From: Minwuia sp.
Lineage (GTDB): Bacteria > Pseudomonadota > Alphaproteobacteria > Minwuiales > Minwuiaceae
Length of the DNA: 64,000 bases
Reading direction: 5' to 3'
NCBI GenBank assembly: GCA_029210175.1
Contig: JARGPL010000039.1
Span: 1 to 64,000 of the forward strand
A program made the position numbers and the translations under genes. The notes beneath the pieces are model-generated. The model searched no databases, had not been told where the DNA came from, and saw only the letters and a program-made list of their open reading frames with translations. Positions 3,222-55,800 of this stretch are shown here, piece after piece; the stretch's first letter is position 1, and each line of letters starts with the position of its first letter.

Positions 3222-3536
3222 ATGTCCAACCCTTACAATATGCCCGCCGGTGCTGGCGGTGAAAACGGCCCACCGGGACAAAACATGCTGGCGGTCACGC
3301 TGGCGTTGCTCGCCGCCATCCTCGGCACGCCGTATCTGTTCAACTATGTCGGTCCATTCGTCGAGAATCTGGTCTACAAGGCCTATGGTTCCCGCGATCT
3401 GGCCGATCTTATGTACTTCGTGAGCTTTGCGCTGTCGGGGTTCGTGATCTTCGCCGTGTGCCGCATGGCGTTATGGTACGCCATTGCCGGGATCGTCGCC
3501 TTCGGCTCGATCCGCATGGCCGGTCTGGCGATTTAG
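3222..3536 (+). CDS. Membrane protein, possible split-off membrane domain of the coupling protein
   Basis: The 104-residue protein has a Pro/Gly-rich N-terminus of about 20 residues and one transmembrane segment at about 22-45. A short polar stretch follows (VENLVYKAYGSRDLADL), then one or two more hydrophobic segments from about residue 65 to the C-terminus. Its stop is four bases before the ATG of the VirD4/TraG-like ATPase, so the two are surely co-translated. Coupling proteins normally carry their own N-terminal membrane domain with two passes and a small periplasmic part. The neighbouring ATPase lacks one, so this protein may supply it. That assignment is inference from topology and position. 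Confidence 0.6.
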   Translation: MSNPYNMPAGAGGENGPPGQNMLAVTLALLAAILGTPYLFNYVGPFVENLVYKAYGSRDLADLMYFVSFALSGFVIFAVCRMALWYAIAGIVAFGSIRMAGLAI

Positions 3537-3540
3537 CGCC

Positions 3541-5148
3541 ATGGCTGAGCCATTTGGCAACAACGCCGATCATCCCTTCGGTTCCAGTCGTTTTTCTGGG
3601 CCGAAGGAGATCGCGCGTGCGGGGCTGTTTACCCGCAAGCCGCATTCCTTGCTGGTTGGTTTTTTTCAAGGCCGTGGGCTGTGGTATTCCGACATGGGCG
3701 GCGCTGCCTGCTTTGCGGGTCCACGTAGTGGCAAGCTGAGCACACTGATCGGCATGAATATCTGCTATGGCATTCATACACCGTCCATGCTGATCTTGGA
3801 TGTCAAAGGCGAGCTTGCCGCAATCTCACGCAATCAAACCCCGGATCGCAAATTCTGTCTCTATTGGAACCCGCAGAATCTTCACGGCATTCATGGCGAC
3901 CGGATCAATACGCTTGATCATATGCGTAAAGACAGTTTGACGCTGATCTCGGATATCAAGGTCTTCGTCGAGAACCAGATAACACTCAGCGGCAGCCCGC
4001 AAGGGCGCTACTTCGAGGGCCGCGCCAAGGAAATCCTTGAGGCGATTTGCCTCACCATCGTCAACCGTGACGGGGTGCTGACCTATCCCGCGCTTTACCG
4101 CGCGATCAACCTTTTGGTGATCGGCGGCAGTGCGTGGCTCGACTTCGCGTTTGAAATGACGGAAATCGGGATTGGGTTCGCGGATCGTATCGAAGAAGAA
4201 ATCGCCTCCTCGCGCGATGATAATACAGGCGGCTTCAAAGGCATCATGGGCGAGATCACCCACGCCTTTAACTGCCTGTCCGATCCCGATCTGATGGCCT
4301 CGGTCTCGCCGCCTTTTACGGCGTCGATGGCGCAGATGTGCGAGAGCGATCAAACCTATCAATTCTATCTGATGCCGCCGGGTGACATGGTCGAAGCATG
4401 GGCTCCGGTCCTGAAATCTTTCTTCGTCAATGCCCGCACCTATAAATCCCGTGCGCCCGCCGCGCCGCGCCAGACATGGATATTGGATGAGATCGGGAAC
4501 CTCGGCTCGTTCCCCTTGGCGATGAAGCTGTTCACCCGCGATGCCGGGCTGGGCATTCGCCCTTGGGGGTTCTGGCAATCGACGGAACAGATGAAATCGC
4601 TGGCACCGGGGGCCGAGAAGATCATCCCCGCCTCGGCGGCCTTGCAGAACTGGTTCGGCGTACGCGATGACAGCACCGCCATTGCGCTCTCACAGCGCTT
4701 AGGCTTCGAGACCTTGCGCTATGCTGATGATGAACGCCGCGTGCGCGCCGAACACTCCAAGCGCCATGCCGCGATGGCCGCCTTCACGGGCCGTAACCCG
4801 TTCGGCGCGGCGATGGAAGCGGCGCATCACGCCAAGCTGGCCGACCTTCCGGCGCTCAAGCAACGCGCCTTGATGACGCAGGATGAGGTTCTCGGCCTGC
4901 CGCAAAATAAACAGATCATCTTCGCCGATGGGCTGGCGCATCCCATTCTGGCGGATCGGGTTCAGTACTACGAACTGCCGTTCATGGCCGGGCGATACCA
5001 CCCGAACCCGTATTTCCCGCCGAAAGATCGCGTTCAGATCATGACGCCGCGCGGGCAACAGTGGCGGCCTGTCGTTGTCGAACCCGTACCCAAACGCTTC
5101 GCGCATTACCCGCAATATCGAGACGGAAGATGGAGCCGCATCGCATGA
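3541..5148 (+). CDS. Type IV coupling protein, VirD4/TraG-like ATPase
   Basis: This is a 535-residue cytoplasmic ATPase of the family that feeds DNA-relaxase complexes to a type IV secretion channel. A P-loop appears near residues 57-66 (AGPRSGKLST), followed by the family's DVKGEL motif. A Walker B with the typical acidic pair lies near 311-320 (WILDEIGNLG). The conserved blocks GRYFEGRAKEI and TYKSRAP are also present. I chose the ATG four bases after the upstream membrane gene because upstream in-frame extensions have no membrane segment. The protein lacks the usual N-terminal transmembrane domain. The residue after GK in the P-loop is Leu, which is unusual. A small gene overlaps its stop. 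Confidence 0.85.
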   Translation: MAEPFGNNADHPFGSSRFSGPKEIARAGLFTRKPHSLLVGFFQGRGLWYSDMGGAACFAGPRSGKLSTLIGMNICYGIHTPSMLILDVKGELAAISRNQTPDRKFCLYWNPQNLHGIHGDRINTLDHMRKDSLTLISDIKVFVENQITLSGSPQGRYFEGRAKEILEAICLTIVNRDGVLTYPALYRAINLLVIGGSAWLDFAFEMTEIGIGFADRIEEEIASSRDDNTGGFKGIMGEITHAFNCLSDPDLMASVSPPFTASMAQMCESDQTYQFYLMPPGDMVEAWAPVLKSFFVNARTYKSRAPAAPRQTWILDEIGNLGSFPLAMKLFTRDAGLGIRPWGFWQSTEQMKSLAPGAEKIIPASAALQNWFGVRDDSTAIALSQRLGFETLRYADDERRVRAEHSKRHAAMAAFTGRNPFGAAMEAAHHAKLADLPALKQRALMTQDEVLGLPQNKQIIFADGLAHPILADRVQYYELPFMAGRYHPNPYFPPKDRVQIMTPRGQQWRPVVVEPVPKRFAHYPQYRDGRWSRIA

Positions 5149-47448: not shown

Positions 47449-48723
47449 CTATCCCTTCAGCCAGTTCACGATGGTGCCGAAATTGTCCAGGTCGCGTTGC
47501 GCGCGGTCGTCTGTGCTGTTGCGGAGAAAGCCGGACAGCCGCAGCCGCAGCCGCCACCATTTCAGCGGATAATAGAGGAAGACCCGGGGGGACCGCGCAT
47601 CCACCGGAAACTCCCGCGCGATGCGTGCACGGGACGGGAAGGCGCGGCCCAGCAGGCGACCGATCTTGCCCCCGACCGTCGGGGTATCAGCCAGTTCCGC
47701 CTGCAACGCCACGTCGCCCCGTGCCTCGACACTGCGCAAGAGGCTGTGTGCGGCGACAGGGAGGATCGGGTCGTCTGCGCGAATGATCGCCGCCGCCGCG
47801 TCATCCCATGCAATCTGCTGGCCGGGCCATTCCCGCTCCAGCAGGCGCAGGGCCAGCGCAACGCCCCGGGTGGCCTGCTGTTGTCGTGCCAGGTCCCAGA
47901 ATGTCGGCCAGTCGATCTGATGATGGTCCAGAATCCAGGCGATGTCCGTGAGGGTCAGAGGGCCATTGTTGAACTGGTTGTCCAGCACGGCATGGACGCA
48001 GATATGCAGCAACAGGTCTTCCGGGCCGGAAAAGCTGATGTCCTGACCAGCGACGGTGCGTCGGACGGCACGCTGCCCCAGCACCTCGTGGCGTCCCAGG
48101 GCCGGATCGTAGGGCATCAGCGCGCTGGGCGTGGTCGTCAGCGTATGCACCTCCACCGACGCCCCGCCCGGCACCCGGATGGTCGGCAGGTGCTTCGATC
48201 CGGCCAGGTAGACCTCCGGGTTGCCCATGTGCTTCGGGTTGCGTTCCAGCCCGTTGGCCAGAAGCGCGTTGAAGGCCGCCATTGCCTGATCGCGCCTGAC
48301 CAGCACATCCAGATCCCGCATGGGGCGAAGACCGGATTCGGGATAGGCGAAATGGGCGAGGTAGGCACCCTTCAGAAACAGGTGCCCGATGCCGGCGTCG
48401 TCCAGCACGCGGCTGACATGGATCATGTCACGCTGCATCGACAGGGCGCGCAGGGTTGATCTGCGGTAGGCAGCCGCCAGAGTGCGCTGGACTTCTGCCG
48501 GCAGCGTATCGCGCAGTCCCGCCCGTCCGATGCTGTAGTGCAGATAGGGCATGAACCGGTGCTCGGCCGCCCACGCCAGGATCTGTGACCAGTCGTCACC
48601 CGTCAGCGCGCCGATGTCCGACCCCTGCATCTGGTCGGGCCGACAGATCAGCGCCAGGGTCATGTCCTCCCGTGCGACCGCACCGGACATCGGATCAACC
48701 AGTGAATACCCGGGTTCAGTCAT
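47449..48723 (-). CDS. Nucleotidyltransferase-fold protein of the lasso-peptide cluster
   Basis: This 424-residue protein belongs to the NTP_transf_5 type (minimal nucleotidyltransferase fold). It shows FLKGAYLAHFAYPESGLRPM then RDLDVLVRR with the metal-binding Asp pair near residue 140, and LLLHICVHAVLDNQ near 225. Relatives occur in lasso-peptide clusters. One, the pseudomycoidin enzyme, is reported to modify the peptide C-terminus (from memory). It is transcribed away from the precursor gene. The 18 bases at its start match those of the cyclase gene exactly. Confidence 0.8.
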   Translation of the reverse strand: MTEPGYSLVDPMSGAVAREDMTLALICRPDQMQGSDIGALTGDDWSQILAWAAEHRFMPYLHYSIGRAGLRDTLPAEVQRTLAAAYRRSTLRALSMQRDMIHVSRVLDDAGIGHLFLKGAYLAHFAYPESGLRPMRDLDVLVRRDQAMAAFNALLANGLERNPKHMGNPEVYLAGSKHLPTIRVPGGASVEVHTLTTTPSALMPYDPALGRHEVLGQRAVRRTVAGQDISFSGPEDLLLHICVHAVLDNQFNNGPLTLTDIAWILDHHQIDWPTFWDLARQQQATRGVALALRLLEREWPGQQIAWDDAAAAIIRADDPILPVAAHSLLRSVEARGDVALQAELADTPTVGGKIGRLLGRAFPSRARIAREFPVDARSPRVFLYYPLKWWRLRLRLSGFLRNSTDDRAQRDLDNFGTIVNWLKG

Positions 48724-48738
48724 CCGAAATTCCGTTCA
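48721..48738 (-). repeat. Shared 18-bp translation start motif, copy 1 (nucleotidyltransferase)
   Basis: Read on the minus strand, TGAACGGAATTTCGG runs directly into the ATG of the nucleotidyltransferase. The identical sequence precedes the cyclase gene at 55798-55815. Downstream coding sequence diverges immediately. Confidence 0.85.
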
Positions 48739-49074
48739 CGACGTTCAGGCACCGGATTGTTGCTGCGAACACCAGTATACACCGGGCCAAGGCCAGTTGC
48801 CTCCTGCCTCTCTTGTGCTTGTAAATGCGACAAATTTCTCACATTCAGGAACAGAATTCACAGTTTCGCCGACCAGCATTATCACGCCAGAACACAGCGC
48901 ATACCCCTGAAACGTGCAAGAACACAGGATTATCGCTCCGGCAACGGGGAAACGCCCCGCTCACCACAGCTTCGCCGGTGCCGGTTCACAGATATATCGC
49001 TCTTGCCAACCGATGGGCAGATGCGTAGAAACGGAACAGCGCATTTATCCAACGTTCAAAAGCGGAATAGCCTG
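48724..49074. promoter_or_regulatory. 351-bp divergent intergenic region upstream of the lasso precursor
   Basis: This gap separates the minus-strand nucleotidyltransferase from the plus-strand precursor. It is more AT-rich than its surroundings, especially near 48820-48900, and must hold both promoters. Beyond the 18-bp start motif and one small hairpin (GGGGAAACGCCCC, about 48949-48961), I see no clear operator, RNA gene or second precursor. Confidence 0.5.
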
Positions 49075-49224
49075 ATGACACAGCGTACCATCTCCGAAGA
49101 CAACGCCTCCACCATCGAAGGCGACGAGAAGAAGGTTTACGAGAGCCCCGTTCTGAACGTGCTTGGCTCCGAAGAAACCGCGAACCTTACCGCTGCAAAT
49201 TCGGATGCCACGACGGTTAGCTGA
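49075..49224 (+). CDS. Lasso peptide precursor (A)
   Basis: This 49-residue peptide has a leader with the RRE-recognition pattern Y22-x-x-P25-x-L27-x-x-L30-G31 (YESPVLNVLG) and Thr35 at the place of the conserved penultimate leader Thr. If cleavage follows Ala36, the core is the 13 residues NLTAANSDATTVS, with an eight-residue ring Asn1-Asp8. If cleavage follows Thr35, the core starts with Ala and a nine-residue Ala1-Asp9 ring is possible. Asp44 is the only acidic residue in the core. The peptide ends in Ser, matching kinase-bearing lasso clusters. It is alone on its strand, followed by a terminator. Confidence 0.8.
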   Translation: MTQRTISEDNASTIEGDEKKVYESPVLNVLGSEETANLTAANSDATTVS

Positions 49225-49258
49225 TCACGGCTTTGCCTCTGGTGATTGCAGAGATTGA

Positions 49259-49302
49259 TGAGGGTGTGTGGACGCTTGGTTCATGCACCCTCACTCGTTT
49301 TG
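49259..49302 (+). terminator. Terminator downstream of the lasso precursor
   Basis: TGAGGGTGTGTG pairs with CATGCACCCTCA (12 pairs with two G-U) across an 11-base loop. CTCGTTTT follows. It starts 34 bases after the precursor stop, so the precursor is transcribed on its own mRNA. The rest of the 228-base gap to the ABC transporter gene shows nothing else. Confidence 0.75.
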
Positions 49303-49452
49303 CCGCTGATATTTTCCTTGGCCTATTGCAGCAGTTTGACCGTATCGAGCGGCCAGTCCCGACCTAAGAACTGGCTAACCTCGTATTGGTCAGGAAAATT
49401 CTGAGTGGATGAGTTTCCCCAGGCGAGGGATTCAACAAGTTGGCGCCTCCTC

Positions 49453-51177
49453 TCAATCTACGCTCGTCTGTGACGGTGCCACGCTTTCCAAGCATCCGGA
49501 TTTGAGAACGACGATCTGATCAGCATGTTGCCTGGTAGCAGCTCGGTGGCCGATATGAACGATGGCCATTTGTCCGTGCAATTGTTGCAGGGCAGTGACA
49601 ACAGCCTGTTCGTTGGCTTCGTCCAGGGAACTTGTGGCTTCATCCAGGATCAGCAGGCTGGGCTTGCGCAACAGCGCCCGCGCGATGGCAAGCCGCTGAC
49701 GTTCGCCGCCGGAAAGCCGCACACCATTGTCCCCGACCATGGTCTCGAGACCGTCCGGCAGGGCGAAGACGAAGTGGGCTGATGCCATTTCGAGTGCGGC
49801 AACCAGATCAGTCTCGGATGCGTCTGGATTGCCGACCAACAGATTGGCGCGCACCGTGTCATTGAACAGGAACACGTCCTGCGGGACGTAAGCCACCGCG
49901 CGCCGCCATCGGTGCTGCGATGCCTCGTCCAGCGCCGTTCCATCGATCTCGACAGTCCCCTCATCCGGCGTCATCAACCCCATCAGAACGTCCGCCAGGG
50001 TGCTCTTGCCAGACCCGGACGGGCCCGTGATCGCCGTCGTGGTCCTGGCTGGCAGTGAAAGGCTCAAGTCCTGCAATGCCGGTTCCGCACGACCGGTAAA
50101 GGTCAGGGTCACGTTCCTCAGGGTGATGGCTTCGTTCAACTGCCAGCCGGGCGGCTCGCTTTCGGGCACAGGCTCCGCATGCGCGGCACTTTCGGCAATG
50201 AATCGGTCGACAGCCGCCAGCGCGGGTTCCGCATTGAGCCAGCGATGCAGGAACTGCTGAGCAGAAAGCAGCAGAGGCATCAACCGTGCGAACAGGAACG
50301 TCAGCGCGAGCAGTTCAGCCAGTGACAGTGCTAGCCATTCCAGGCCCGCGTAAACGCATAGCGCCAACATCGCCGCGCCAATGGCCTGTTGCAGGCTGCG
50401 GGTCAGGCTGGTGTCGATGCCGAACTTTAGTTGCGTGCGGCGTACCTGGCCGACGGTCCTGACCAGCAATTCGATATGGTGGCGCTCGCTGCCCAGGATC
50501 TTGGTCAGTTTCAATCCGGTGAAGGCCTGCTGCACGTTGGCCATCAGGGCCTGGTTGGCCTTGACCTGCTCCGTACCCAGCCGGGATGCGCTGCGCCGGA
50601 TGCGATGCATGGCGACATAGCCGATTGCGGCGGCAAGGGCGATCAATGCCGCCATCCCGGGGGAGAAGACGAGTGCTACGGCGAAATAGGCAATGGCGGT
50701 TGCAAGGGTTGTCAACAGGGTCAGGCCGGCATTCAATCCCGCGCCGATGCGCTGCACCTCCCCCAACACGAGGTTCATGTGGTCTGTTCGGGTCTGCGCC
50801 GTGATCCAGCGCCAGTCCGCGCGCATCAACTGGCTGATGCAGTTCTCCCGCAAGCCGTCGACAACCCGGAATTGCAGGGTCAGGCTGGTCCGATCCTTGG
50901 CGAACTGGATGACACTGCGCAGCGCGACCAGGGCGACGAAGACCAGCAGGAATCCTGCCAGCGTCGCGGATATGTTCAGCGTATCGAGCAGATCGAGCAG
51001 ATGCTGGACAATGGTGTTGCTGTTGTCGCCACCCATCAGCGATGACAGCAGCGGCACCAGCAGGATGATGCCTATCCCCTCCGTCATGCTGCCTAGCAAT
51101 AGCAGGATGACGAGGGCAAGCAGATGGGGACGAGGTGCGCGCCGTAGCAGGGAATACAGGCTGTTCACGCTGGTCAC
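49453..51177 (-). CDS. Lasso peptide ABC exporter
   Basis: This 574-residue half-transporter fuses six transmembrane segments (residues about 15-310) with a nucleotide-binding domain. The Walker A is GPSGSGKSTLADVLMG near 382, the Q-loop lies in YVPQDVFLFNDTV, and the signature LSGGERQRLAIARALL near 485 precedes LLILDEATSSLDE. It likely exports the mature peptide and gives self-protection. Its ATG overlaps the B2 stop as ATGA, so ABC, B2 and B1 form one minus-strand operon. Confidence 0.93.
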   Translation of the reverse strand: MTSVNSLYSLLRRAPRPHLLALVILLLLGSMTEGIGIILLVPLLSSLMGGDNSNTIVQHLLDLLDTLNISATLAGFLLVFVALVALRSVIQFAKDRTSLTLQFRVVDGLRENCISQLMRADWRWITAQTRTDHMNLVLGEVQRIGAGLNAGLTLLTTLATAIAYFAVALVFSPGMAALIALAAAIGYVAMHRIRRSASRLGTEQVKANQALMANVQQAFTGLKLTKILGSERHHIELLVRTVGQVRRTQLKFGIDTSLTRSLQQAIGAAMLALCVYAGLEWLALSLAELLALTFLFARLMPLLLSAQQFLHRWLNAEPALAAVDRFIAESAAHAEPVPESEPPGWQLNEAITLRNVTLTFTGRAEPALQDLSLSLPARTTTAITGPSGSGKSTLADVLMGLMTPDEGTVEIDGTALDEASQHRWRRAVAYVPQDVFLFNDTVRANLLVGNPDASETDLVAALEMASAHFVFALPDGLETMVGDNGVRLSGGERQRLAIARALLRKPSLLILDEATSSLDEANEQAVVTALQQLHGQMAIVHIGHRAATRQHADQIVVLKSGCLESVAPSQTSVD

Positions 51178-51674
51178 GCCTTGCCCTCCGGCGCGAGACC
51201 GCGGCCGACAAACATGCGGACCACATGATAGTGCGCGAAAGCCTGACCGCCGGTGACGGAAATCGGTCCGGACATGACCCAGGCATGGGCGCTGAGGTCA
51301 CGGGCACCCTTCGCGCGCTCCAACCCGAAATAGATCGCGTGAGGTACCCGATAGAAGCGCAGCAATGTGCGCGCCGCCAATGCCTGTGGATAGCAGTTGG
51401 CATCCCATGGGCAGTACCTCACGGCAAGCGCGATGGTTCGGCGGATCTGTCGGGCGCGTGATGTCTGCCTGTCACCAGTCAGAGGCACCCAGGCGCTGGC
51501 CCCCACGTCCTGTCCATAGAACGGGGCCATTCGCTTCAGGGGGACGGACAGGATCAGCGCCCGATACAGACCGAGCAGCAGCCAGACCGGAAACAGCCAG
51601 ATGATGGTGAATGCAGGCTGGCGGCCGAGGTTGCGACATTTTCGGGCAATTGTTTGGGCCAGCGACATCTGCAT
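51174..51674 (-). CDS. Lasso peptide B2 protein (leader protease)
   Basis: This 166-residue transglutaminase-like cysteine protease cuts the leader from the precursor. The catalytic Cys is in RYCPWDANCYPQALAARTLL near residue 95 and the catalytic His in LSAHAWVMSG near 135. The Asp is not clearly assignable. A hydrophobic N-terminal segment (AFTIIWLFPVWLLLGLYRAL) may associate it with the membrane. The start is uncertain between two ATGs six bases apart. It lies seven bases after the RRE gene. Confidence 0.88.
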   Translation of the reverse strand: MQMSLAQTIARKCRNLGRQPAFTIIWLFPVWLLLGLYRALILSVPLKRMAPFYGQDVGASAWVPLTGDRQTSRARQIRRTIALAVRYCPWDANCYPQALAARTLLRFYRVPHAIYFGLERAKGARDLSAHAWVMSGPISVTGGQAFAHYHVVRMFVGRGLAPEGKA

Positions 51675-51681
51675 GACATTG

Positions 51682-51948
51682 CTAATCTGCCACCAGCCGA
51701 TTCTTGACCAGGTCGGCCAGGAAAGCCTGCACGTCCTTCCGGCAATCCTGCTCCGATACCTCGAACTCGGCGCGGACCAGTGACACCAGTTCATCTTCGG
51801 TCCGCGGCTGTTCCAGCTTATCCCAGATCAGGGCGGCGACACCGCCGACACCGAAATACGAACCATGCTCGATGCTCATCAGCACGGTCTCGCCATCCAT
51901 GTCGGTCGAGACGAAATCGGGCAGGCGACAATAGGTCGTTGAAGACAT
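51682..51948 (-). CDS. Lasso peptide B1 protein (PqqD-like RRE)
   Basis: This 88-residue PqqD-type RiPP recognition element binds the leader and presents it to B2 and the cyclase. The family pattern is LPDFVSTDMDGETVLMSIEHGSYFGVGGVAALIWDKLEQ (abridged; residues about 10-48), followed by the helix pair DELVSLVRAEFEVSEQDC and VQAFLADLVKNRLV. An ATG 15 bases upstream is also possible. It leads the minus-strand B1-B2-ABC operon. Confidence 0.9.
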   Translation of the reverse strand: MSSTTYCRLPDFVSTDMDGETVLMSIEHGSYFGVGGVAALIWDKLEQPRTEDELVSLVRAEFEVSEQDCRKDVQAFLADLVKNRLVAD

Positions 51949-52136
51949 GTACTCTGGTTCCATCCCTTGGTATGCGGCCTTAATAGGGCATAATCCGACG
52001 TGTTGGCAAAAGGAGTTTCCCAGTCGGTTTCGGGAGGCATGCCTTGCATCACACCCGGTTCGCAGAACGGTTCCCCCCTGACGATCTTTGCTTTAGTAGT
52101 TTTGGCAGAGATCAGGACACCATCGACGGATAAATC

Positions 52137-53039
52137 ATGCCCCGCTTCTGCAAGGCCTATGGTCTCACCATAGAGTCAGACATTGCCCTGCCAGAACTGC
52201 TCGCAGCCGCTCACGAAGGTGGACCTGCGGACATCACGATTTCTCGTGGCCCTGTTCGTGTGCCAGCTGTTGGGCAAGTGAAGCAGATTTCGCCCTTTAT
52301 CTGGGTTGGTGAAGATGCCTTCTGGCTTCATGTGCCAGGTGTCGCCCGTTTTTCAGTGGTCGGTGCGTCAAAGATTACCATCGATCCTGAGCCTGGCGTG
52401 GACGAGGCGTCCATCCGCGTGTTCCTGCTGGGGTCGGTTCTGGGTGCGGTTCTGTTCCAGCGCGGTTTCCTGCTGTTGCATGGCAACGCGGTCGAAGTTG
52501 ACGGCGGGTGCGTGATCTGCATCGGGCCATCCGGAGTGGGGAAATCCACGCTTGCGGCCGGTTTCCTGCAGCGCGGATACCGGATGCTTGCCGATGACGT
52601 GGTGCCGATAGATGCTGACTGTGCTGCCGTTCCGGGCTTTCCCCGGCTCAAGATCTGGCAGGATGCAGCCGAGAAGATGGCCATAAATACAACGGCGCAA
52701 ACGCGCGTGCGGCCGGACATGAACAAGTTCAACCTGATGACTCGGGACAATTTCAGCGATGCACGCTTGCCCGTGCGCTGGATCTATATTCTCAGCAGCG
52801 AGAACCGGGATGGATTCGAGGTTCAGCCGATCCATGGCATGCATCGCTTTGCGCCGCTGCGCGAGAACACTTACCGACGCCGTTTGATGGAAGGCATGGC
52901 CCTGCAGCCGGAGCATCTGAAACGCTGCGGTGAGCTGGCATCGAAGGTGCGTCTGACCAGGCTGGTTCGGCCAAAGACCGGTTTCGATATCGATGGGTTG
53001 GTCGACACGATCCTGGCAGACATCAGGACCGCGGGTTGA
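52137..53039 (+). CDS. HprK-like kinase of the lasso cluster
   Basis: This 300-residue protein has a C-terminal half like HPr kinase: P-loop IGPSGVGKSTLAAGFLQRGY near residues 127-145, DDVVPIDADCAAVPGFPRLK, and a late GMALQPEHLKRCGELAS stretch. The N-terminal half is the divergent domain common to lasso kinases. In the paeninodin type such enzymes phosphorylate the side chain of the C-terminal Ser of the precursor (from memory), and the precursor here ends in Ser. It is divergent from B1 and is followed by the sulfotransferase after one base. Confidence 0.88.
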   Translation: MPRFCKAYGLTIESDIALPELLAAAHEGGPADITISRGPVRVPAVGQVKQISPFIWVGEDAFWLHVPGVARFSVVGASKITIDPEPGVDEASIRVFLLGSVLGAVLFQRGFLLLHGNAVEVDGGCVICIGPSGVGKSTLAAGFLQRGYRMLADDVVPIDADCAAVPGFPRLKIWQDAAEKMAINTTAQTRVRPDMNKFNLMTRDNFSDARLPVRWIYILSSENRDGFEVQPIHGMHRFAPLRENTYRRRLMEGMALQPEHLKRCGELASKVRLTRLVRPKTGFDIDGLVDTILADIRTAG

Positions 53040-53040
53040 A

Positions 53041-53895
53041 ATGGGTGGCATCTACTGGCTGGCATCCTATCCGAAGTCCGGGAACACATGGTTCCGGACC
53101 TTCCTGCAGAACCTGATGAGCGTTGCCGACACGCCGACTGATATCAACAAGCTGAACACGGGTAGTATCGCGTCCAGCAGGAACTGGATCGATGATGTGA
53201 TCGGTTTCGACACGTCCGACCTGCGCCAGGACGAGATCGAGAGCCTCCGTCCCCATGTCTATCGCTGGATGTGCCGTGGCGACGGCGTCGCCTATCACAA
53301 GATTCATGATGCCTACACCCATACGGGTGAAGGACGGCCGCTGGTTGATGATATTGCCACGCTTGGAGCGCTCTACATCATCCGCAACCCGCTGGATGTT
53401 GCGCCATCCTATGCCGGTCACCGCAATTGCAGCATTGATGATGCGATAGGCTCCATGGGCGATCCGAGACACGCGCTGGCACGATCGCAGAAGGCGCTGC
53501 CTGATCAGTTGCTGCAGTTCGTGGGGACCTGGTCACAACACGTCATCAGTTGGGTGGATGCGGAACGGTTGAACGTGAAGGTCATCCGCTACGAGGACAT
53601 GCATGCGACGCCAGATCGAACGTTCGGGTCCGCCGCAGACTTTCTGGGCCTCGACACGGATACCGAGCGACGCAGGCGTGCAATCGACTTCAGCAGTTTC
53701 GATATCGTTGCGGGGCAGGAGGCTCGTTCGGGGTTTCGGGAGCGGCCGCCGCAGGCGGAGCGGTTCTTCCGCAAAGGGGTTGCCGGTGACTGGCGCGAGT
53801 CTTTGACCGATGCCCAGGTCACACGGATCATCGCGGACCATGGGATCGTGATGTCCCGTTTCGGTTATCTGGATGCGGCGATGCAACCCGTCTGA
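53041..53895 (+). CDS. Sulfotransferase of the lasso cluster
   Basis: This 284-residue PAPS-dependent sulfotransferase has the 5'-phosphosulfate loop YPKSGNTW at residues 10-17 and the 3'-phosphate motif YIIRNPLDVAPSYAGH near 115-130. The late motif VIRYEDMHATPDRTF and the C-terminal FFRKGVAGDWRESLT are typical of cytosolic-type sulfotransferases. The start one base after the kinase stop shows coupling and favours a role in the same modification step. Sulfation of a lasso peptide is inference and would be unusual. Confidence 0.9.
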   Translation: MGGIYWLASYPKSGNTWFRTFLQNLMSVADTPTDINKLNTGSIASSRNWIDDVIGFDTSDLRQDEIESLRPHVYRWMCRGDGVAYHKIHDAYTHTGEGRPLVDDIATLGALYIIRNPLDVAPSYAGHRNCSIDDAIGSMGDPRHALARSQKALPDQLLQFVGTWSQHVISWVDAERLNVKVIRYEDMHATPDRTFGSAADFLGLDTDTERRRRAIDFSSFDIVAGQEARSGFRERPPQAERFFRKGVAGDWRESLTDAQVTRIIADHGIVMSRFGYLDAAMQPV

Positions 53896-53901
53896 ACCCT
53901 G

Positions 53902-55800
53902 TCAGAAGTCATTGCGTCCACTGATGTAGCGCACGAAGCGGGCAGTCGTCAGCCCGCGGCTGAGCGCCAGTTTCAGTGTCTGAGTCTGCTCATGAGTGAT
54001 GCTTGAACCGTCTGTCGGCATGTCCTCTACCGCTCGCCTCAAACGGTCGAAGTCCAGATATCCCTTGACCAATGGATCAGACGAAAGCCATTCGATTTCG
54101 GCAAGGAGTTCTTGGCGTTGTGGCAACATCCGCGCTGTCCAGTCTGCCGCCTGTAGTCCACGTCGCTTCTCGTTGCGGACCATTTCCGGCACCTTGCCGA
54201 CCAGCATGCGTTTCGCAAGCCAACGTTTCCGACCCCTGTTGAGGTATTGTTCCGGCGGGATCGCGAGACAGAATTCGAGCAACGGTCGGTAGCGTGTGGG
54301 GTCGCGGTTTGGAAGACCGTGCAGCCGTTGCAGGGCGTAAAGCAGATCTCCTGTTTCATTTCCGGCATCCACCAGAGTGGCGTGGCGAAAATCAAGTACC
54401 GAGGATGGAGGCATGAAGGCTCGGTCCTGGCCCATCTCGAACGCGCGTTCCGCCACATCATGATCGCGGGCAAACTCTGGGTGAATCGGTGACCAGGTCG
54501 GCAGGTCCGTGCTCCACAGACTGCCGAACCGCCTTCTCAAGGCCTGCCGTGTCGATACTGGCAAGAACGGCAACACGGCTTCGCGTGCGGTGCGGTCGAA
54601 CAGCTTCCGTCGCGGCCCACCGTGCCAGAGTTCCAGTGCTGCGCGCACCCACTGGCCGTTGCGGATCATGTCCTGCAAGAAGCCGTTGCCTGCATAGCTG
54701 AAAGTTGCATTCCCCATGACTCCGGTCAACAGCACATCGGCGTTCGCGCCCTTGGCTCCCCGCTGAACGTTATGTATCCATTTGAGGTTTGTCGGGTTTC
54801 GCGGCGATATGAGGGATGCTTCGAAGATATCTCCCTGATCGTCGGTGAAATTTTCCCCGGTGGATTCCACCCAGTGCGGCCGCAACTGCGGATACATGGC
54901 CGCCAATGCCTCGACGTGGGGTCGCTCATCGACCAGTGTGGACGAATCTCCTGGCGTCCAGTTCGGGTCCGGTACGGACGTGAATGACAGCAGCGGTTGA
55001 TCCGGCCGGACCTGCATCGTGTAGGCGGCGACAGCCTGGGAATCCAGTCCGCCTGACAGGCTGATGGCGGGGCGCTCAAAGCCGTCGAGTGCCATGGTCA
55101 CGGCCTCACGGAACAGGGCGTCTGCGGCCTCCACATAGTCGCTGTCACGCTTGAAGCGGACGGGCGGGATGTTTTCTATATCGAAAAAGCGGGTTTCCTT
55201 GACGCCATCCGGTGTGGCCCAGACACGGGTGCCGCGCGGCAGGCGCGCGACGCCCTTGAACCAGCCGCGACGTTCCTCGCGATAATTGAGATACAGCGTA
55301 TCGGCGATCTTCTGTTCGTCCAGCACCCGTTCGATCTCGCCGCTGGCGAAGATTGCCTGTGCATGGCCGGTCACGATCAGCCGGTCGGCGTCGCGCCAGA
55401 AATACAATGCGGGTGACCTGATCGGGCTGCGCGCCATGCGGACGCGCTTGCCATTGGCTTCCACCATGATCACGGCATATTCGCCCAGCAATCGCTGGTC
55501 GGCATCCTCCCCCCACCGGGCCCAGGCAGCGGCATAAAGCGCAGCATCCCCTTCGTCTGGCACACCCAGTTCCGCCCGCATCGCGTGGCGGTTCTCGATG
55601 AAGCCATAGAGCAGCACCGCCGAGCCGTCCGGGGCGCGGGCAGGCAGTTCCGTCGGCGCGGCATAGCCGTCACAGAGCAGTGCCCCGTTCAGAAGGTGCG
55701 CCCTTGCCGACGAGAAACCGGTCCGAAGGGCAGAAGCGAATGCAACTGACCGGGACAGGGCCGCATCCGGGTCATGCCAGAGGACGTAAACGCCAATCAT
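53902..55800 (-). CDS. Lasso peptide cyclase (asparagine synthetase-like C protein)
   Basis: This 632-residue ATP-dependent lasso cyclase closes the isopeptide bond by adenylating the Asp side chain. The N-terminal glutaminase-like domain lacks the catalytic Cys2 (it starts MIGVYVLWH), as in lasso cyclases. The synthetase domain has the PP-loop SLSGGLDSQAVAAYT near 247 and GDIFEASL, LTGVMGNATFSY and RKRWLAKRMLVGKVPEMVR motifs. It converges with the sulfotransferase gene (six-base gap). The 18-bp start motif matches the nucleotidyltransferase gene. Confidence 0.92.
   Translation of the reverse strand: MIGVYVLWHDPDAALSRSVAFASALRTGFSSARAHLLNGALLCDGYAAPTELPARAPDGSAVLLYGFIENRHAMRAELGVPDEGDAALYAAAWARWGEDADQRLLGEYAVIMVEANGKRVRMARSPIRSPALYFWRDADRLIVTGHAQAIFASGEIERVLDEQKIADTLYLNYREERRGWFKGVARLPRGTRVWATPDGVKETRFFDIENIPPVRFKRDSDYVEAADALFREAVTMALDGFERPAISLSGGLDSQAVAAYTMQVRPDQPLLSFTSVPDPNWTPGDSSTLVDERPHVEALAAMYPQLRPHWVESTGENFTDDQGDIFEASLISPRNPTNLKWIHNVQRGAKGANADVLLTGVMGNATFSYAGNGFLQDMIRNGQWVRAALELWHGGPRRKLFDRTAREAVLPFLPVSTRQALRRRFGSLWSTDLPTWSPIHPEFARDHDVAERAFEMGQDRAFMPPSSVLDFRHATLVDAGNETGDLLYALQRLHGLPNRDPTRYRPLLEFCLAIPPEQYLNRGRKRWLAKRMLVGKVPEMVRNEKRRGLQAADWTARMLPQRQELLAEIEWLSSDPLVKGYLDFDRLRRAVEDMPTDGSSITHEQTQTLKLALSRGLTTARFVRYISGRNDF

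Follow-up and report, generated by a model that had tools for sequence, protein, structure and literature searches.

Phosphorylated lasso peptide clusters of the paeninodin family (PadeA/PadeK, ThcoK; Bacillota) combine an HprK-like kinase with a split B1/B2 pair, a cyclase and an ABC exporter, and their precursors have a leader with an aromatic-xxP motif, Thr(-2) 13 residues later, and a C-terminal Ser. Lasso kinases act on this precursor Ser and are able to attach several phosphates (PMC8498205, PMC9266682), the C-terminal Ser also being the reported target in the polyphosphorylated lasso peptide of Sphingobium yanoikuyae (SyanA/SyanK), a proteobacterial kinase cluster (PMC8498205, PMC9266682). 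BsfK of another lasso kinase clade phosphorylates Ser3 and not the C-terminus (PMC10368454), and the sites of lasso kinases therefore vary. HprK together with NTP transferases has been described as typical of paeninodin-like clusters (PMC13381572), and the addition of hexoses to the phospho-Ser of lasso peptides has been linked to a nucleotidyltransferase homologue (PMC8498205, PMC9266682), as for pseudomycoidin (psmK, psmN), whose phospho-Ser gains hexoses in vivo. A sulfotransferase gene is mentioned, with no function given, in some Firmicutes lasso clusters (PMC8498205, PMC9266682). A literature search limited to open-licence papers found no sulfated lasso peptides, and none of the papers searched has yet demonstrated phosphate together with sulfate chemistry on a lasso peptide.

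The locus described here lies at 47449-55800 of the window (the whole stretch of DNA that was analysed, 64,000 nucleotides from a Minwuia-like alphaproteobacterium). It shares the genes and precursor features listed above with the paeninodin family but has Tyr for Trp in the leader, a much shorter core, a precursor unrecognised by the paeninodin model NF033524, an HprK-sulfotransferase gene pair and another gene order. With the SyanA/SyanK cluster it shares a proteobacterial setting, the kinase and the C-terminal Ser, and with pseudomycoidin, by description, a kinase and an NTP-transferase homologue, although the reviews consulted report no sulfotransferase for the latter. The Bsf cluster of Bradymonas sediminis (BsfK, BsfN) likewise has RRE, B2, cyclase, kinase and nucleotidyltransferase but differs in its Ser3 target, in Ile as penultimate leader residue and in a C-terminal Asp. 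An earlier sequence-only reading of the locus had stated that kinases and nucleotidyltransferases are known in some lasso clusters, which the chemistry on record bears out (PMC8498205, PMC9266682), and that the two together with a sulfotransferase were not characterised. The latter holds for the sulfotransferase in open-licence papers but not in the sense of a one-off, since the kinase-sulfotransferase pair recurs across Pseudomonadota. Beyond known kinase and NTP-transferase chemistry, this conserved pair is the single additional feature.

Gene content of the cluster

All eight genes are present with the checked active-site motifs intact, in the following order:

47449-48723, minus strand: NTP_transf_5-family protein, candidate tailoring nucleotidyl/glycosyl-transferase like PsmN (PF14907, E 5.6e-49; KG...R-x3-DxD intact)
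49075-49224, plus strand: lasso precursor with a leader up to ...YESPVLNVLGSEETA and NLTAANSDATTVS as predicted core (homologues in relatives L007 and L008; Thr(-2), acid at 8/9 and C-terminal Ser as in relatives)
49453-51177, minus strand: ABC exporter (PF00005, PF00664)
51174-51674, minus strand: B2 leader peptidase, transglutaminase-like (NF033537, 67 bits, cut-off 33; catalytic Cys and His conserved)
51682-51963, minus strand: B1 RRE, PqqD-like leader-binding protein (PF05402)
52137-53039, plus strand: HprK-like lasso kinase (PF07475, 38.9 bits, cut-off 33.3; His115, Walker A GPSGVGKST, Asp153-Asp154)
53041-53895, plus strand: PAPS-dependent-type sulfotransferase (PF00685; YPKSGNTW, KIH, RNPxDVxxS and GxxGDW intact; lasso-linked side of the sulfotransferase tree)
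53902-55800, minus strand: Asn-synthetase-like lasso cyclase, C protein (NF033535, E 2e-44, below the model cut-off; SGGLDS loop)

A precursor with leader, an RRE, a B2 protease and an Asn-synthetase-like cyclase define this as a lasso cluster, and the genes named in the sequence-only reading, a full lasso set with HprK-like kinase, sulfotransferase and NTP_transf_5 protein, were all found, all but the precursor by family matches. The boundaries proposed there were also right, the flanking ORFs being acyl-CoA dehydrogenase-like and oxidoreductase-like on the left and LigA-like and RecN-like on the right (ORF translations, by eye), while two gene starts had to be moved: the sulfotransferase most likely begins at 53041 rather than 52993, and B2, although its ORF is open to 51794, more likely starts at the Met at 51674.

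The window's own genome has a single lasso B2 gene, the one in the cluster. Searching genome contigs with a cyclase-alignment profile gave no more than three close relatives and two Bacillota matches, both weak; the relatives that have names are a MAG of Minwuia thermotolerans and 'Kordiimonadales bacterium' IMCC3096. Compared with L008 the RRE-B2-ABC-precursor-NTP block (window 47449-51963) is inverted, and HprK, sulfotransferase and cyclase have the same orientation in both. At its left end the window has a stretch of lower GC, and an ORF there (3448-5148) resembles, by eye, a conjugative coupling protein.

The His-Lys-Asp-Asp motif of the kinase is complete (His115, Lys136, Asp153, Asp154) and its AlphaFold (AF2) model, with a pLDDT of 72.9, matches PEPCK and HprK structures in the PDB; the HprK-related kinase A model TIGR04352 gives 39.6 bits, below the required 200 bits. 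The sulfotransferase matches PF00685 with 72.7 bits (cut-off 22; E 4e-20) and keeps the PAPS loops and the catalytic His. An APS kinase domain was found in the window's own genome and PAPS can therefore be made. By sequence the closest solved-structure relative of the sulfotransferase is the glycopeptide sulfotransferase TEG12, also a modifier of a peptide natural product, which matched in only two short stretches and whose pathway differs from that of the window. The NTP_transf_5 protein keeps its KG and DxD motifs; its AlphaFold model (pLDDT 46.6) was unusable and a PDB sequence search with the protein gave no match.

The precursor and its predicted core

The window precursor has no NCBIfam or Pfam match, NF033524 (cut-off 27 bits) giving none at E<=1, and the relatives L007 (13.6 bits) and L068 (19.4 bits) also fall below this cut-off. 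Homologues occupy the equivalent place in L007 and L008, and from the relatives cleavage is predicted after Thr(-2)-Ala(-1), between ...EETA and NLTAANSDATTVS, which would give a core of 13 residues with an Asn1-Asp8 ring and a C-terminal Ser13. Asp8 then lies within core positions 7-9 after Thr(-2), and Ser13 is the C-terminal Ser expected of a phosphorylated lasso precursor. The spacing of the window leader agrees with that of paeninodin-family precursors, and an annotated precursor of this family on a Priestia plasmid (L126) has the same W-to-T spacing. Placing the core start by the spacing otherwise usual, Tyr(-17)/Thr(-2), would leave the window core with no acid at positions 7-9 and was rejected for that reason.

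When small ORFs in the cluster loci were scanned for [WY]xxPx[hydrophobic] followed by Thr 13 or 14 residues on, with the core unconstrained, 41 candidates were obtained, 35 of them with Asp or Glu at core position 8/9. All 35 end in Ser, against one of the remaining six. Among 30 de-duplicated precursors, curated by hand and eye, 29 have the acid at 8/9, against an average of 4.9 over 20,000 shuffles, of which not one reached 29, and since this list was picked by eye the 35/41 of the scan is the fairer figure. The precursor rule picks up peptides that the NCBIfam model misses. In the HprK-sulfotransferase loci every precursor (23/23) has the C-terminal Ser, and no second conserved hydroxyl was found in their cores, the other tabulated positions having at most 39% Ser, Thr or Tyr; in the window core the other hydroxyls are Thr3, Ser7, Thr10 and Thr11. 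One candidate precursor in a kinase-sulfotransferase locus (L083, 11220-11309; core GPSTFSSGQAAHVS) keeps the C-terminal Ser and has no Asp or Glu at 7-9.

The predicted window core is very short and starts with Asn, which counts against a lasso pathway and would suit a decayed or non-lasso one in which the core stays uncyclised, as in the linear polyphosphorylated peptides (LPPs), for which clusters with HprK and NTP transferase are known (PMC13381572). LPPs lack a cyclase, however, whereas the window retains both the SGGLDS loop of the cyclase and the Cys-His pair of B2, and the acid at 8/9 is conserved; we regard this explanation as very unlikely.

Kinase-sulfotransferase pairs in other genomes

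In a class sample of 385 alphaproteobacterial genomes the kinase search returned 45 places in 21 genomes. At 27 of the 45, in 16 genomes, a sulfotransferase gene lies directly downstream of HprK on the same strand with a gap of -43 to 165 bp, a count for which coordinates were transferred by hand from the outputs of the kinase and sulfotransferase searches. In many of these loci, HMMs trained on them detect neighbouring RRE, B2 and cyclase genes, and 3.9-kb loci from outside the Alphaproteobacteria, taken from a phylum sample, also contain HprK-sulfotransferase pairs, with NTP-HprK-sulfotransferase in family f188. The two genes form a module that is conserved across Pseudomonadota.

The broader sulfotransferase family is common (86/385 alphaproteobacterial genomes at E 1e-25), and close homologues are also found alone or in tandem arrays distant from lasso genes, as would be expected if the window enzyme were a passenger acting off the peptide, e.g. 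on a surface glycan or lipid. In 20 loci around unpaired copies no cyclase, RRE or B2 was found with HMMs trained on cluster loci. Against a passenger role, which we consider quite improbable, the HprK-sulfotransferase gene order is strict over many families and the tree sets the lasso-linked enzymes apart from the unlinked ones. In this maximum-likelihood tree, built from 30 sulfotransferases linked to a kinase and 42 unlinked ones, one label change suffices (shuffled mean 23), and the separating branch has support of 97/89 and is present in 96% of bootstrap trees; because 'linked' means a kinase match within 2.5 kb and the tree is midpoint-rooted, it shows clustering, not direction. Conservation of the sulfotransferase without lasso genes, which the sequence-only reading had named as evidence against its proposal, is thus seen in the broader family but not in the clade that holds the window enzyme.

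Several loci show other arrangements. One (L066) has three HprK-sulfotransferase pairs with RRE and cyclase-like genes inside 19 kb, a Tistrella-like genome (L094) has two pairs consecutively in tandem, and L104 is a tandem array of ~8 or more sulfotransferase genes outside any lasso cluster. In a lasso cluster on a plasmid of Sulfitobacter indolifex (L124) HprK lies beside a sulfotransferase annotated as family 2, which was missed by the sulfotransferase HMM and is possibly an independent recruitment.

A proposed pathway with phosphate and sulfate

Taken together, the locus is likely to encode a phosphorylated-lasso pathway with a conserved HprK-sulfotransferase module, in which the peptide is also the substrate of the sulfotransferase, perhaps at its C-terminal end; the conserved kinase and sulfotransferase would probably add phosphate and sulfate to the lasso peptide. 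The RRE would bind the YxxPxL leader, the kinase act on the linear precursor to phosphorylate its C-terminal Ser, and B2 cleave after Thr(-2)-Ala(-1), after which the cyclase would link Asn1 to Asp8 into a 13-residue lasso for export by the ABC protein. The sulfotransferase would sulfate the peptide using PAPS, and the NTP_transf_5 protein may place a hexose on the phosphorylated end, as proposed for PsmN. Gene content, intact motifs, conservation and the precursor rules were observed directly, and from them we infer the order of the steps, the cleavage site, the ring, and sulfation and its site. Among the modifications foreseen in the sequence-only reading, phosphate on the C-terminal Ser has good support from homology, while sulfate and a sugar or nucleotide are suggested by the enzymes present.

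As acceptor of the sulfate, we think the end bearing the phosphate (or a hexose placed by the NTP_transf_5 protein) somewhat more likely than one of the variable hydroxyls of the core, since no hydroxyl other than that of the C-terminal Ser is conserved. Sulfation, independent of the kinase, of a Ser, Thr or Tyr side chain that varies by peptide (here Thr3, Ser7, Thr10 or Thr11) is nevertheless a serious possibility, if the less probable one: SULT-fold enzymes normally sulfate hydroxyls, TEG12 is the nearest solved relative by sequence, and the listed HprK-sulfotransferase cores do have another hydroxyl residue. Its position is not conserved, however, and wherever a sulfotransferase lay near a lasso cyclase in the sampled loci, the kinase was there too, adjoining it directly except in one distant case (L100); this suggests that the sulfotransferase depends on the kinase. 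Two group-transfer enzymes with one conserved acceptor residue could also compete for the C-terminal Ser, to give either phosphate or sulfate, but competition does not need strict pairing and known lasso kinases act alone, and we think this unlikely. The conserved kinase-sulfotransferase pair and the single conserved acceptor residue make a compact set of enzymes and peptides for testing lasso sulfotransferase function.

A wider and rather doubtful extension would be a Pseudomonadota-wide group of lasso peptides with a composite C-terminal group, made up of Ser phosphate, an NTP_transf_5 extension and a sulfate cap from the dedicated sulfotransferase, on cores down to 13 residues that do not start with Gly. 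The NTP_transf_5 gene adjoins the kinase-sulfotransferase pair in the genus of the window and in one other group, and in many genomes it is located elsewhere. In the relatives L007/L079 and L008/L080 it lies directly upstream of HprK-sulfotransferase on the same strand, with protein identities of 51-58%. A PF14907 gene is present in 20/21 genomes selected for kinase-sulfotransferase pairs versus 5/26 other sampled members of the class, but genome size differs between the two sets, many of the control genomes being small, and confounds the comparison. Outside the bacteria, a lasso cluster on a plasmid of the archaeon Halopiger xanaduensis (L128) has genes for an NTP-transferase, an HprK-like protein, B2 and PqqD.
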